Positions 994 to 5,688 of a stretch of DNA of 11,317 bases are shown here, piece after piece. The position numbers were made by a program, and so were the translations under genes. The stretch comes from a bacterium. GTDB taxonomy: Bacteria > NPL-UPA2 > JAGMAN01. Every line of letters starts with the position of its first letter. Position 1 is the first letter of the stretch. The DNA lies in assembly GCA_023130215.1 (NCBI GenBank), contig JAGMAN010000080.1:1-11317 (forward strand). The letters are read 5' to 3'. The notes beneath the pieces are model-generated. The model saw only the letters and a list, made by a program, of their open reading frames with translations. It made no database searches and was not told where the DNA came from.

Positions 994-2334
994 CTATTCA
1001 ATCGGCCCCACGATCCGCTCTATCTTACAGGAAGCGGCTACATTGCCGGCTGGATCTAATGCCGTCCCCTCTGAAATTATCTGGAAATATGTTGACCTGA
1101 AGCAGAACGGTGTTGTCCAGCACTCGGGGTTCCCATCTCCATCGTAGTCCGCTACACTGGAAGGGTCAGCATTATCTTTAATGTTATCTCTTGCAGCATC
1201 TGAACTTATAGCCGCGCCCTGATGGTAGCCGTTGGACCTAAGATAATCTATAAGGGCATTGAATTCTCCCCGGGCTCCACCAGCAAAGAGATATGTATCT
1301 TCAGCATCATCTGAACCATCATCGTCACCATCATTATCAAGCCCATCCGAACTAAACCCAGTTACAGTGGGGTCAATCCCGTCGCCACGATTGCTGTCAA
1401 TACCATCAAAGGGATTGGGGTTTCCACCCCCAATGTTGCTTCCGTCATCATAATCTTTCCCAGTTCTGTACTCTATGATGGCTTTAACTACTTTGTCCCG
1501 GGTGGCCTCTCCAACATCAGGAATACCAACACTAGCAGTACTTATCACCGCTCTCAATACTCTCTCATTGGCGGTATTGACATTGACCGGAGATACGTCG
1601 ATTCCTCCACCGGCCGGATCAGTAATAGTAGGAGAACTGACGGTGATAAGATCCTCAATTCCTCCATCCAGGACTCCATCAGCATCGTCATCGACTCCAT
1701 CATTCTCATTACTATCCAATAGATGGTTGTCATTCTCATCGTCTCCATAGAAAATCCCCAGGCCGATGTTGTCAGCAGTGATCACCTGAGCGATGGTTAG
1801 ATAGGGTCTGCCGCCAATGATGTCATTGGCTTTGCTATCACCTATTCCTGGCAAGCCTTCCAGAAGGTCGTTTTGTGCCGTATTAATGTTAATCTTACTT
1901 TCCTCATCAATTATCCCCCTAATTATATGTCCGTTAACATCGCCGTCAGATTGCACATCTAAAAGTGTATTATTCTCATCCCCCGTGCCGGCAATTGTCC
2001 GGGTATACCTGACATCAAATTCGCCACCTTCTATTGTCCCGCTATATCCAACTGCCCAGCCCTGAGCCAAGGTAGAGTAGTTCGCCCAGAGATAATTGGA
2101 GTTATTCGCATAAATTTTCAAGGCAGCTACTGCCCTGGCAACTCCTGCCTTAGCTAAATACTTTGCCTTCATGCCATACATATAATTGGCGGCACATTTC
2201 TCTTCTAACCTCATATTGAAGGCGAAGGAGAGCCCAATAGCCAAGAGCACTGCCACCGCCATTACCGCGGCAATTAAGGCTACTCCCCTGTCATCCCTTG
2301 GTTGAGTTTTAGTCCAGCTAACCTTCACTCTCAT
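994..2334 (-). CDS. gspK: Type II secretion minor pseudopilin GspK, with Asp-rich insertions
   Basis: A 446-residue GspK-type protein, expected to cap the pseudopilus tip with GspI and GspJ. The prepilin site is DRG17|VALIA, followed by a hydrophobic helix to about F39. The residue at mature position 5 is Ala, not Glu, which is the hallmark of GspK. Two family signatures are visible: DEESKININTA (143-153) leading into a helix-hairpin-helix-like LPGIGDSKAND (161-171), and VNVNTANERVL (250-260). GspK is usually 300-340 residues. The excess lies in Asp/Asn/Gly-rich stretches at 198-229, 309-347 and 396-403, which resemble calcium-binding repeats. It overlaps gspJ by 4 nt (ATGA), so the two are probably translationally coupled. 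GAGGAG is only 2 nt before the ATG but 8 nt before an in-frame GTG at codon 3 (2328), so the true start may be that GTG. Assignment is strong; the calcium role is inferred. Confidence 0.92.
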   Translation of the reverse strand: MRVKVSWTKTQPRDDRGVALIAAVMAVAVLLAIGLSFAFNMRLEEKCAANYMYGMKAKYLAKAGVARAVAALKIYANNSNYLWANYSTLAQGWAVGYSGTIEGGEFDVRYTRTIAGTGDENNTLLDVQSDGDVNGHIIRGIIDEESKININTAQNDLLEGLPGIGDSKANDIIGGRPYLTIAQVITADNIGLGIFYGDDENDNHLLDSNENDGVDDDADGVLDGGIEDLITVSSPTITDPAGGGIDVSPVNVNTANERVLRAVISTASVGIPDVGEATRDKVVKAIIEYRTGKDYDDGSNIGGGNPNPFDGIDSNRGDGIDPTVTGFSSDGLDNDGDDDGSDDAEDTYLFAGGARGEFNALIDYLRSNGYHQGAAISSDAARDNIKDNADPSSVADYDGDGNPECWTTPFCFRSTYFQIISEGTALDPAGNVAASCKIERIVGPIE

Positions 2335-3128
2335 CGCTCCTCAGCTGCCGGCATATAAACGGTTGTTGATAAGGTTAGGGGGTCTTCCCGAGCCTGGTCA
2401 TCCCGAACCTGGATCGTTATTTTAACTGCATGTGGCAGCTCATCCTCGCTTGGGTTCGGATCTCCAGTTCCGCCAACCGGTCGGTAGTAGGTGGTGTGAA
2501 TATCTGTATTAGAATCCCAAAGGCGATCATCCGCTAAGCTTTCCGAATTTGTAAAGATGAATCCACCACTGGCATCATTGTAGTATCCATACTCAAAGTT
2601 CAGACTGATGACATTCGATACCAGAGTAGCCGCTCCCGTCTTTTCCTCTATAGTACTATCTGGAATGTCATCCAGCCGCCTCATAAGGTTAGACGAGGAA
2701 GGAGAGATGCTTTCATTTAAATAGTACCCTATCTCGCATAAATCATATTGACCTGTACCAGCGGGATGATTAACAGCGGCAACAAAATAAAGTTCGTCAT
2801 CCTGTCGGTCAGTGCCATTGTCATTCCAAGTTGCCTGCTTGCCCCTAAAGATTATATTTGAACCAAGCATAGCACATTGAATTTCGCGTGAAATCATATC
2901 TAAGGCAGCTCGAGCATTGAGGTAGCGTTCCATGCGCGCCGTCCCTTTCGTCCAAGAAGTTGTTCCGCCTTTGAAGGAAGTGTAGATAGCGGCCACGGCT
3001 ATAACTAATATGGTCACGGCTACAAGGATCTCTGTTAGGGTAAATCCTTTTTTAATAACGTGCGACGGAGCATGGATTCTAGTCAATGAATCTCTCTTTT
3101 CTCGCTCCCCTTCCATAACAGCATCCAC
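2331..3128 (-). CDS. gspJ: Type II secretion minor pseudopilin GspJ
   Basis: A GspJ-like prepilin of up to 265 residues. The cleavage site is KKG28|FTLTE with Glu at mature position 5, followed by a hydrophobic segment to about A47. The region after it (ERYLNARAALDMISREIQCA) matches the GspJ pattern of a leader helix ending in D-x-x-x-R-E. The rest is a beta-rich globular domain with Asp/Asn/Ser-rich loops. GspJ is usually near 200 residues, so these loops are somewhat enlarged. Two starts are possible: GTG at 3128, which overlaps the GAGGGGG motif, and ATG at 3116, which lies 11 nt from it and is more plausible by spacing; the longer form is listed. The positively charged pre-cleavage leader is long either way. 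It sits between gspI and gspK in the canonical H-I-J-K order and overlaps gspK by 4 nt. Confidence 0.88.
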   Translation of the reverse strand: MDAVMEGEREKRDSLTRIHAPSHVIKKGFTLTEILVAVTILVIAVAAIYTSFKGGTTSWTKGTARMERYLNARAALDMISREIQCAMLGSNIIFRGKQATWNDNGTDRQDDELYFVAAVNHPAGTGQYDLCEIGYYLNESISPSSSNLMRRLDDIPDSTIEEKTGAATLVSNVISLNFEYGYYNDASGGFIFTNSESLADDRLWDSNTDIHTTYYRPVGGTGDPNPSEDELPHAVKITIQVRDDQAREDPLTLSTTVYMPAAEER

Positions 3129-3154: not shown

Positions 3155-3583
3155 TTAGCTATAGTCAGCTAAGTAGGTGAAGAAATTCTCCGAGCGGGTT
3201 TGTCCCCGGTCCTGCCAGTATATTATGACATTTACGCCCTTCAGATTCAGGTCCGGCGTAAAAGTAGTATCTGTCACTTCGGCATTCCAGCTGAAGTCGG
3301 GCTGATCTGGAAAGGGCTGAGCAGGTGCATTAGCCTCGGTTTCCCCTGAAACATCCCAATTATACCAGCCATCGGTACTGTAAAGGGAATACCCAGCCCT
3401 CTTTATGCTTTCTAGCCGCTGTTGGCCTAAGATGGCCGCAGTCGTAAAATCACCGGCTCGCTTGCTTGCCCTCAAGCCGGTCGGGAAGAGAGCTAAGACT
3501 CCTACCAGTCCAATGACGAGAATAGCCAGGGCAATGACTATTTCGAGTAAGGTGAACCCCTTACTACGGATTAATTTCCTCAT
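3155..3583 (-). CDS. gspI: Type II secretion minor pseudopilin GspI (PilV-like)
   Basis: A short prepilin of 142 residues. Its leader is MRKLIRSKG|FTLLE, with Glu at mature position 5 and a long hydrophobic helix (IVIALAILVIGLVGVLALFP). Length and position between gspH and gspJ fit GspI; the helix and following segment also resemble the type IV pilus modification protein PilV, so the I/PilV choice rests mostly on context. ATG at 3583 is chosen over an upstream in-frame TTG at 3586 because GGGAGAG lies 9 nt before it. The 5' end overlaps gspH by 20 nt in another frame, suggesting translational coupling. GspI normally nucleates the tip complex with GspJ and GspK at the inner membrane. Confidence 0.87.
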   Translation of the reverse strand: MRKLIRSKGFTLLEIVIALAILVIGLVGVLALFPTGLRASKRAGDFTTAAILGQQRLESIKRAGYSLYSTDGWYNWDVSGETEANAPAQPFPDQPDFSWNAEVTDTTFTPDLNLKGVNVIIYWQDRGQTRSENFFTYLADYS

Positions 3584-4082
3584 CAACGATTACTCTCCCA
3601 GTAGTATTACTGACTCCAATTCGCTTGTAATTATCGTTTTTATCTGCTACCCAAACTGAGCCACTGGTCCCGCTAAGGCCACCAGTTGCCTTGAAATCTG
3701 CTTGATTATTCACAAATGTGATATAATCATCCTCATTATAGATTGCCCCTGGCCTCCTGATGTCAATAGTATCTGGCAGGGTGTACGTTTCACCTACAAC
3801 GTTTCCACTCCACTCAATCCAGAATTGTCTGTTAGCAATGTCGAAGTCAACACTATAGATATCTCTCTTAGTAATTGCCATGGTTCGGGCTAATCTCAGG
3901 GCTGAGGCAATCTCCCTTGCGCCACCTTTGAGGCGGGCGCCTTTGATGTAGCCGGAGATGGCGGGGACGGACATTCCTGTAAGCATGGCCATAATGGCCA
4001 AGACGACGAGGAGTTCAAGGAGAGTGAAGCCAAAAAAGTTGAGAGTTGGACATTGAGAGTTGAGAGTTCTACGACGCAGCAT
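3564..4082 (-). CDS. gspH: Type II secretion minor pseudopilin GspH (FimT-like)
   Basis: A 172-residue prepilin. The cleavage site is FFG18|FTLLE, followed by a hydrophobic helix (LLVVLAIMAMLTGMSVPA). After it comes the GspH/FimT signature: a basic amphipathic stretch, then EIASALRLARTMAITKRDIYSVDFD, the usual lead into the beta-domain. ATG at 4082 has GAGG eight nt upstream; a GTG at 4091 overlaps that SD and is less likely. The short leader upstream of the cleavage site is encoded by a 7-bp-period repeat (see 4039-4068). It follows gspG after 57 nt and overlaps gspI. GspH is thought to join the tip complex to the GspG shaft. Confidence 0.87.
   Translation of the reverse strand: MLRRRTLNSQCPTLNFFGFTLLELLVVLAIMAMLTGMSVPAISGYIKGARLKGGAREIASALRLARTMAITKRDIYSVDFDIANRQFWIEWSGNVVGETYTLPDTIDIRRPGAIYNEDDYITFVNNQADFKATGGLSGTSGSVWVADKNDNYKRIGVSNTTGRVIVDEEINP
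4039..4068. repeat. Heptamer iteration in the gspH leader codons
   Basis: The plus strand reads TTGAGAG, TTGGACA, TTGAGAG, TTGAGAG, TT: four units of 7 bp, three identical. On the coding strand this is AACTCTC, AACTCTC, AATGTCC, AACTCTC, AA. It encodes most of the part of the GspH leader removed by prepilin peptidase (TLNSQCPTLN), so the repeat falls in residues absent from the mature protein. Confidence 0.75.
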
Positions 4083-4139
4083 TTTGGTCACCTCAAAGCT
4101 GAACCTGCCGGCTAATGTTTTATCTGCCGTAAGCTATGG

Positions 4140-4856
4140 CTACCAGTTGTTGACGTCGTCCATGCTCTTGTCACAGTCGGCGCTCGTTGCATCATCGCTG
4201 TTGCCATCCATATCATCGCTCCAAGCTGAACTATCAGTTGAATCAGAGGTTTCACTGTTATTAGGGCCCTCAGTCATCCCATCAGGTCCAAAGGAGTAGA
4301 TGTCAACTCCCAATGTGTTGTGGCGAGGGTAAGTTGTGGTAGTGCTCCCATCCAAGTCAACGATAACAACATATGGATTGCCCCAAGGATCCTTGATGTA
4401 ATTTCCACTACCCGTCCATTCAATGTCATCTTTTTTCACATCCAGATAAGGGCCGTTCCATCGATTATTATCCACGTGAGCAGTCAGGAGATCCCAATTT
4501 TGATTATCCCCATTTCTGCCAGTAAGAAGTTCCAGTATCTTCCACTGCACCTCCTCGTAGGCGCCACCCCCTCCGTCATAGTCAGGATACGTGCCAAAAT
4601 CGGTCTGGTACATGCTGAGGGCGATTTCGAGCTGGGAAATCATAGCTTTGGCTTTGGCTTCCATGGCTTTCATTCTTGCCTTACGGAGGGCGGGCATGAG
4701 CAGGCCGGCCAGGATGGCGATGATGGCGATGACGGTGAGGAGCTCCACCATGGTAAAGCCACGGCTGTGTTGTGTTTCTGGTATGCTGGGAGAGAGATGA
4801 AAGAAATGTTTAACCTGTAACCAGCAACCTGCAATTTTAGACCTTAACTTTCGCAT
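4140..4856 (-). CDS. gspG: Type II secretion major pseudopilin GspG
   Basis: A 238-residue major pseudopilin, the building block of the T2SS pseudopilus. A long leader ends at SRG33|FTMVE (Glu at mature position 5), followed by the hydrophobic helix VIAIIAILAGLLMPAL. Family hallmarks follow: LEIALSMYQTDFGTYPD (76-92), WNGPYLD (133-139), IKDPWGNPY (154-162) and DIYSFGPDG (185-193), ending in DDVNNW. In known GspG structures an Asp of the GPDG-like loop and Asp residues of the terminal DI-x-x-W segment bind calcium; the equivalents here would be D192 and D233/D234. Between them lies an acidic Ser/Asp-rich stretch of about 40 residues where roughly ten are usual. The ATG has AAGGAGG 6 nt upstream. 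It is first gene of the cassette, behind a sigma-54-type promoter. Confidence 0.94.
   Translation of the reverse strand: MRKLRSKIAGCWLQVKHFFHLSPSIPETQHSRGFTMVELLTVIAIIAILAGLLMPALRKARMKAMEAKAKAMISQLEIALSMYQTDFGTYPDYDGGGGAYEEVQWKILELLTGRNGDNQNWDLLTAHVDNNRWNGPYLDVKKDDIEWTGSGNYIKDPWGNPYVVIVDLDGSTTTTYPRHNTLGVDIYSFGPDGMTEGPNNSETSDSTDSSAWSDDMDGNSDDATSADCDKSMDDVNNW
4812..4834. repeat. Heptamer iteration in the gspG leader codons
   Basis: The plus strand reads AACCTGT, AACCAGC, AACCTGC, AA: three 7-bp units plus two bases. It lies in the codons for the cleaved GspG leader (around GCWLQVK). Period and unit form are like the repeat in the gspH leader, but in the opposite orientation. Confidence 0.65.
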
Positions 4857-4862
4857 TTTTGT

Positions 4863-4869
4863 CCTCCTT
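4863..4869 (-). promoter_or_regulatory. Ribosome binding site of gspG
   Basis: The minus strand reads AAGGAGG, 6 nt before the gspG ATG at 4856. It lies within the 19-nt leader predicted from the sigma-54 promoter, so such a short transcript would still hold a full SD. Confidence 0.85.
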
Positions 4870-4886
4870 CCGTTTATTTATAATAC

Positions 4887-4901
4887 GCAATTTTCGTGCC
4901 A
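4887..4901 (-). promoter_or_regulatory. Sigma-54 (RpoN) promoter for the pseudopilin operon
   Basis: The minus strand reads TGGCACGAAAATTGC, matching the sigma-54 consensus TGGCACG-N4-TTGC at every fixed base, with correct GG-to-GC spacing for -24/-12 elements. Counting 12 nt from the GC gives a start at about 4875 (an A), 19 nt before the gspG ATG and just upstream of its SD. No good sigma-70 pair is visible: a TATTAT lies just downstream, but nothing like TTGACA sits 17 nt before it. Sigma-54 promoters need an AAA+ activator, so regulated expression follows from family knowledge. It has not been tested. Confidence 0.8.
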
Positions 4902-4967
4902 GGTTTCTCTTTTCTGGTCATTGCCGGCTTTTTTACCGTCGGTGGCGTGGAATTCCCCTCACCCTAA

Positions 4968-4996
4968 ATCCTCCCGCCTGGGCTGGGGGGCAGGAT
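4968..4996. repeat. GC-rich imperfect inverted repeat
   Basis: ATCCT at 4968-4972 pairs with AGGAT at 4992-4996, and the CC pairs inside (4974-4975, 4977-4978) pair with the G run at 4986-4990, giving 9 bp with two mismatches around a short loop. No T-run follows on either strand, so it is not a typical terminator. It lies about 94-122 nt upstream of the predicted gspG transcription start. Confidence 0.4.
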
Positions 4997-5002
4997 GAGT
5001 GG

Positions 5003-5051
5003 CGCTTGTTAGTGTGTTGTATAGGGGACACCCCTAAAAAATCAACAAGCG
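5003..5051. repeat. 49-bp nested inverted repeat with TAGGGG-ACA-CCCCTA core
   Basis: The outer arms CGCTTGTT (5003-5010) and AACAAGCG (5044-5051) are perfect 8-bp complements. Inside them TAGGGG and CCCCTA (5022-5027, 5031-5036) form a perfect 6-bp stem around ACA. It lies 128-176 nt upstream of the predicted sigma-54 start, the usual distance for enhancer-binding activator sites. It could equally be a REP-like element or an RNA hairpin. Confidence 0.6.
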
Positions 5052-5081
5052 TAAGTGGCGAAAACAGAAGAGCTTATGTTG
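5036..5081 (-). terminator. Possible weak intrinsic terminator after the ribosomal operon
   Basis: On the minus strand CAACATAAGC (5081-5072) can pair with GCTTGTTG (5050-5043) as 8 bp with a 2-nt bulge and a 21-nt loop. It is followed by A and then six Ts (5041-5036). The stem is only half GC and the loop is long, so termination would be weak. Its 3' arm is also an arm of the nested inverted repeat at 5003-5051, so the two folds exclude each other. Confidence 0.3.
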
Positions 5082-5093
5082 TATTCCCCAAAT

Positions 5094-5148
5094 AAGCATC
5101 ATCTGTTATGTATTGGTAACACATTAATAGTGAGGGTCTCTGATGCTT
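5094..5148 (-). other. Hairpin directly after the rplE stop codon
   Basis: AAGCATCA (5148-5141 on the minus strand), starting at the base after the rplE stop, is perfectly complementary to TGATGCTT (5101-5094), with a 39-nt loop. The loop holds a smaller TGTTA/TAACA pair (5104-5108, 5117-5121). No T-run follows, so it may be an mRNA 3'-end or stability structure rather than a terminator. No gene is seen in 4857-5148, and I find no remnant of rpsN there. Confidence 0.4.
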
Positions 5149-5688
5149 CTATTCCTGGAAGGGCATTCCTGAGAGTTTGAGAAGTTCTCTTGCCTCTTCA
5201 TTGCTCTTAGCGGTAGTTATCAGAGTGATGTCCATTCCATGCACCATGGGTATTTTCTCATAGCTGATCTCGGGAAAGATTGTCTGCTCTTTGATTCCCA
5301 ATGTGAAGTTCCCTTTGCCATCAAATGAGTTTGGGGAGATGCCCCTGAAATCTCTAACCCGGGGAAGGGCTACATTTACCAATCTATCAAAGAACTCGAA
5401 CATCCTGTTTCCTCTCAGGGTAACCTTGCAGCCGATGGTCATTCCTGCCCTTATCTTGAAGCCCGCAATTGATTTCCTTGCCTTAGTGGCAATCGGCTTT
5501 TGACCGGTAATGGCGGCCAGTTCTCCTACGACCGCTTCTAAAAACTTGGGGTCAGCTACTGCCTCACCCAGGCCAACATTGATGACAATCTTCTCCAACC
5601 GGGGCACTTCAAGGTTATTTTTATATTTGAATCTTTCCTTCAACCGGGGGAGAATCTCTTTCTGGTATTTATCTTTTAGTCTGGCCAT
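5149..5688 (-). CDS. rplE: 50S ribosomal protein L5 (uL5)
   Basis: A complete 179-residue L5, of normal bacterial length. L5 binds 5S rRNA in the central protuberance and contacts P-site tRNA. Diagnostic segments are [15 protein letters not shown] near the N-terminus, [27 protein letters not shown] in the middle, and [16 protein letters not shown] towards the C-terminus. The ATG shares one base with the rplX stop (TAATG), so translation is probably coupled. This is the last ribosomal gene here: in most bacteria rpsN and rpsH come next, but here the operon ends. Confidence 0.98.

Follow-up and report, generated by a model that had tools for sequence, protein, structure and literature searches.

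A predicted sigma-54 promoter and candidate enhancer upstream of a pseudopilin cassette in an uncultured bacterium

The pseudopilin cassette and its upstream region

The window analysed here, a stretch of 11,317 nucleotides, carries on its minus strand five genes for proteins resembling the pseudopilins GspG, GspH, GspI, GspJ and GspK, downstream of rplE (Table 1). The original prediction described these genes as a type II pseudopilin operon, and their order and matches to Gsp families are consistent with that description. However, all NCBIfam Gsp models score below their curated cut-offs, with some Pfam domain models above theirs, and the only detectable secretin in the genome is PilQ-like (TIGR02515, 286.7 bits; cut-off 284.4) and lies within a type IV pilus cluster. 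A GspD secretin was not found in this assembly (about 90% complete), in which the GspD model scored below its cut-off. The gspH and gspG leaders are unusually long, and a short repeat (CAACTCTCAA-like and similar) is seemingly inserted in their leader-peptide regions (window positions 4021-4091 and 4741-4856). The spc ribosomal operon ends with rplE (5149-5688), after which the cassette begins; this junction is absent in G002, a genome of the same genus, and may represent a rearrangement or an assembly join.

Table 1. Features of the window discussed in the text (G002, same genus; G008, another family of the same phylum; C16, a contig with a related promoter)
Feature	Position	Strand	Evidence or remarks
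GspK-like pseudopilin	994..2334	minus	T2SSK, HHH_3
GspJ-like pseudopilin	2331..3128	minus	N_methyl; T2SSJ below cut-off; G008 32% identity
GspI/PilV-like pseudopilin	3155..3586	minus	N_methyl; G002 54%, G008 42% identity
GspH-like pseudopilin	3564..4091	minus	GspH, N_methyl; best matches G002 and G008 gspH
GspG-like pseudopilin, first gene of the cassette	4140..4856	minus	T2SSG 37.9 bits, N_methyl 28.6 bits; TIGR01710 57.7 bits, below cut-off
Predicted transcription start (about 4875) and 19-nt leader	4857..4875	minus	sequence geometry; start inferred
Sigma-54 -24/-12 promoter TGGCACG-AAAA-TTGC	4887..4901	minus	exact match; enrichment over controls; conserved in G002 and the syntenic G008 cassette
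Conserved 26-bp element GCCACCGACGGTAAAAAAGCCGGCAA	4921..4946	minus	between dyad and -24
Candidate enhancer (activator-binding dyad) TAAG-N17-CTTA	5052..5076	minus	perfect 8/8; half-sites invariant in window, C16 and G002
rplE (L5), upstream neighbour, possible read-through source	5149..5688	minus	NF000585 288 bits

The proposed promoter, with its exact -24/-12 spacing, was confirmed as an exact match, TGGCACGAAAATTGC, at 4901-4887, 31 nt before the ATG (4856) of the gspG-like gene. We took GG and GC dinucleotides at -24/-12 together with a near-consensus TGGCAC-N5-TTGC to define a sigma-54 promoter; in the window site both dinucleotides are present at the canonical spacing. The short leader was likewise said to just contain the gspG Shine-Dalgarno sequence, and indeed GGAGG can be read directly from the sequence at 4867-4863. 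A sigma-70-like promoter was looked for in the interval from rplE to gspG and not found. The possibility that the upstream region encodes a structured RNA or riboswitch was rejected, as it gave no meaningful Rfam match. The conserved upstream region (about 4921-5120) falls outside the interval 4857-4901 covered by the original prediction.

Sigma-54 sites, RpoN and activators

The assembly comprises 1,012,618 bases in 136 contigs. A scan for TGGCACG-N4-TTGC returned four exact copies including that in the window, where 0.18-0.36 would be expected (both strands; base composition or first-order Markov), and the reversed pattern gave none. This excess bears out the view that the site is not a chance match. 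Eight genomes of the same phylum contained 27 exact sites and no match to the reversed control, and 28 of the 31 exact sites in the combined set (own genome plus these eight) lay outside long ORFs. When one mismatch was allowed in TGGCAC-N5-TTGC, 41 sites were obtained, 7 exact and 34 inexact, against 16 for the reversed control. The one-mismatch sites are therefore close to noise (34 versus 16) and only the exact form is informative; as extra members of a regulon they were rejected, being mostly within genes and without dyads (see below).

Several other sites were found. That on C16 has the same geometry as the window site and precedes a pseudopilin operon, while on C120 TGGCACAAAACTTGC is flanked by an activator gene and a pilin gene. 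Further sites precede lpxD (C113; TIGR01853, 369 bits), lie upstream of PilZ-domain genes (C73) or lie downstream of an activator gene (C43). Altogether, three of the six plausible promoters in the own genome serve pilin-type operons.

The genome also contains rpoN (C23; TIGR02395, 376.9 bits; cut-off 277.35). The AID, core-binding and DNA-binding domains were all found in its product; the RpoN box is not visible because the reading frame is cut by the contig end ahead of it. Four sigma-54 activators (on C54, C43, C24 and C120) have full AAA+ and Fis-type HTH domains, the latter in all four, with receiver domains in three; GAFTGA is present. The C24 activator gene immediately follows a pilC-like gene, within a cluster of pilB/pilT/pilC-like genes that also includes a histidine kinase gene, and the C120 activator gene stands in front of a pilin operon that is followed by pilM and the only secretin found. 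We regard the PilR-type C24 pair and the C54 pair as the best candidates for the activator of the window promoter. Elsewhere, locus L006 (G000:C83, 434-1612) encodes a protein in which an RpoN DNA-binding domain (PF04552, 50.9 bits) is fused with a GIY-YIG nuclease domain (27.3 bits), each above its Pfam cut-off; this fusion is possibly a nuclease directed to -24 sites.

Relatives preserve the -24/-12 bases, both before gspG in G002 and before the syntenic cassette in G008. The G002 orthologue of gspG (66-72% identity) has TGGCACGGAAATTGC upstream, and the upstream regions of G002, the window and C16 align over about 230 bp with invariant blocks. The three regions are homologous, by descent or copying, and so do not count as independent copies. 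Across them, the -24/-12 bases and the dyad half-sites are preserved, as is most of the 26-bp element, while the dyad interior and the spacer vary. In G002 two small genes, resembling a nucleotidyltransferase/HEPN pair by sequence, lie between gspG and gspH (L068 1360-2200). The G008 cassette retains the G-H-I-J-K order (identities 36%, 34%, 42%, 32% and a partial 44%) and lies behind pilC, a C24-clade (PilR-type) activator gene (support 100/100) and a gene resembling that of an FHA-domain protein; its site, TGGCACAGAACTTGC, is 92 nt before the first cassette gene. No -24/-12 site was detected within 260 bp of about 17 other pseudopilin genes at the loci examined, with the exception of G001 C113, which itself lies behind an activator gene. 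A gspG-like gene in G006 was set aside, as it lies outside any G-K cassette and has no site.

A candidate enhancer dyad

Most of the sigma-54 sites in the phylum have a dyad, TAAS-N17-STTA, upstream. In the set of 31 sites, picked by the exact promoter alone and regardless of the dyad, 12 had a perfect dyad within 100 bp, other spacings (10-25) giving 0-1 each. At a match of at least 7/8 the count rose to 22 of 31, versus at most 10 for other spacings. A 38-site set, which is biased because part of its sites were chosen by the dyad, contained 19 perfect dyads versus 0.28 in dinucleotide shuffles. Dyad distances in this set cluster at -43/-46, -52/-55 and -62/-65, with a best phasing of 10.5 bp among the periods tried. 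The dyad consensus is TAASYNNTTG-N5-CAANNRSTTA, and a composite dyad-plus-site pattern gave about 65 matches versus 4 for the reversed control in 290 genomes, some of them outside the phylum.

The copy in the window, TAAGCTCTTCTGTTTTCGCCACTTA, has perfect outer half-sites and poor inner TTG/CAA positions. It stands at -175 from the T of the -24 box, farther than the usual -43 to -66; the G008 dyad is imperfect. On sequence grounds we consider the window dyad a candidate enhancer, one that is absent from the original prediction and possibly new, an exact match not having been found in the literature, which is weak evidence of novelty. The 26-bp element (GCCACCGACGGTA-AAAAGCC-GCAA) was found only in the window, C16 and G002 pseudopilin promoters of the genus and had no Rfam match; as a phylum-wide site it was rejected, since matches outside the genus were at chance level only.

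The single activator detected in G006 belongs to the C54 clade, and its gene is found just upstream of an lpxD promoter that carries a perfect dyad. This arrangement suggests that a C54-clade activator can use the dyad. Dyads adjoin several unrelated activator clades, however, and therefore do not single out the activator of the window promoter. An exact sigma-54 site with a dyad is found at lpxD in G000, G002, G008 and G006 (among L003, L073, L071 and L081), and a near-exact site in G003; lpxD adjoins an activator gene in G003, G006 and G008. G003, which belongs to the same order, has 17 exact sites, many of them before genes for exported proteins (L072, L083, L084, L090, L091, L094 and L095).

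We envisage a small regulon in the phylum, in which pilin and pseudopilin operons, lpxD, PilZ genes and response regulators would share this promoter. A bolder proposal, which we advance tentatively and at less than even confidence, is that a widely shared enhancer grammar (a pair of TAAS half-sites spaced by 21 bp, equal to two helical turns, within a 25-bp dyad of the above consensus) would link several non-orthologous Fis-type activators to one envelope regulon (pilins, pseudopilins, lipid A synthesis through lpxD, PilZ) across the candidate phylum, the gspG cassette having a distant copy together with the 26-bp element.

Control of the cassette and relation to known systems

Given the sequence elements with their enrichment and conservation, and a genome that encodes RpoN and activators, we judge it highly probable that a working sigma-54 promoter drives the gspG-H-I-J-K-like cassette, which would belong to the small regulon, respond to an activator at the dyad and serve a pilus machine. 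RpoN-containing RNA polymerase would form a closed complex at 4901-4887. A phosphorylated Fis-type activator of the NtrC family, probably bound at the TAAG-N17-CTTA dyad (5076-5052), would reach the promoter by DNA looping and open the closed complex through ATP hydrolysis. Such surface machinery would probably remain off unless a dedicated ATP-driven activator is present.

Two other accounts of the site have to be weighed against a working promoter. Since no intrinsic terminator was found on the minus strand in the 292-bp gap between rplE and gspG, and the two genes run in the same direction, read-through could also transcribe the cassette. That no sigma-70 promoter was found in this gap likewise fits the idea that the cassette is mainly read through from the S10/spc ribosomal operon ending at rplE, with a minor part for the sigma-54 site. 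However, G002 keeps the promoter module with a remnant pseudopilin gene, not rplE, upstream, and in G008 it is an activator cluster that lies upstream of the site. Conservation of the site thus cannot depend on rplE, and we consider predominant read-through unlikely. The homology over about 230 bp could also mean that the site is a dead remnant, carried along by copying of a C16-type pseudopilin region, or the sequence could have arisen by chance. We give this very little credence: the -24/-12 bases, both half-sites of the dyad and the greater part of the 26-bp element were retained while the dyad interior and spacer diverged, an exact -24/-12 site is also present in G008, where the upstream context is different, and the exact site is enriched genome-wide.

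A separate issue is the machine that a promoter of this kind would serve. The original proposal, a genuine type II secretion system controlled by RpoN, draws on the G-H-I-J-K order and the Gsp-family matches, and gspD or the gspC/L/M genes may lie in the part that the incomplete assembly lacks. Against this, the one secretin is PilQ-like and in a pilM-type cluster, the motor cluster on C24 combines pilB/pilT/pilC-like genes with an activator pair, and the G008 cassette itself sits in a motor cluster of the C24 type. We therefore regard a true type II system as doubtful, if less so than read-through. Because the only secretin found is PilQ-like and the G008 cassette is in a motor cluster, the cassette products are most likely minor pseudopilins of the type IV pilus machine and not of a separate type II secretion system. 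A cassette often labelled type II secretion is then probably controlled together with type IV pili, by the same logic.

RpoN control of type IV pilin genes, which the original prediction invoked, is established: in Geobacter, PilR and RpoN control pilA, and pilR adjoins pilA (PMC2725144). As in the PilS/PilR-RpoN-pilA systems of Pseudomonas, Myxococcus and Geobacter, a sigma-54 promoter here precedes pilin-type genes and the C24 activator pair adjoins pilC; the C120 activator gene, directly upstream of its site and pilin gene, resembles the pilR-pilA arrangement of Geobacter. In contrast to those systems, a G-H-I-J-K cassette is also included here, in a small uncultured phylum, and the activators and enhancer are candidates. 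A known kind of pilus control would thereby extend to a little-known uncultured bacterium. The same prediction held that RpoN control of a gspG-K cassette would be unusual. It is less so, for in Plesiomonas shigelloides RpoN raises the expression of T2SS-2, a gspG-containing cluster, as seen by RNA-seq and qRT-PCR (PMC9743648). That cluster is complete, whereas the cassette here consists of pseudopilin genes only and has a clear promoter, and gspD was not found.

The wider pattern also has precedents. In the PEP-CTERM regulon of PrsK/PrsR, many surface-protein genes share a sigma-54 site and an upstream motif (Haft 2006, PMC1569441), a combination also seen here, where several G003 sites precede exported-protein genes. 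However, PrsR motif 1 is 17 nt long and ends in TTTACA (PMC1569441), whereas the dyad here is TAAS-N17-STTA. The PrsR/PEP-CTERM system was rejected on this difference and because the best activator of the own genome scores 422.9 bits against a TIGR02915 cut-off of 502.6. Sigma-54 as a controller of the bacterial exterior is a published generalisation (Francke 2011, PMC3162934), with which the pilins, lpxD and PilZ genes of the proposed regulon agree; the text of that paper does not use the terms pseudopilin, pilin or type II secretion. A single sigma-54 site spotted by eye appears to belong to a genuine regulon of an uncultured phylum, and the candidate enhancer may provide a means to list the regulon of an unculturable group. 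Since PilR/RpoN control of pilins, RpoN-dependent type II secretion and sigma-54 control of the surface have all been published, what is new here is the group and, possibly, the enhancer.
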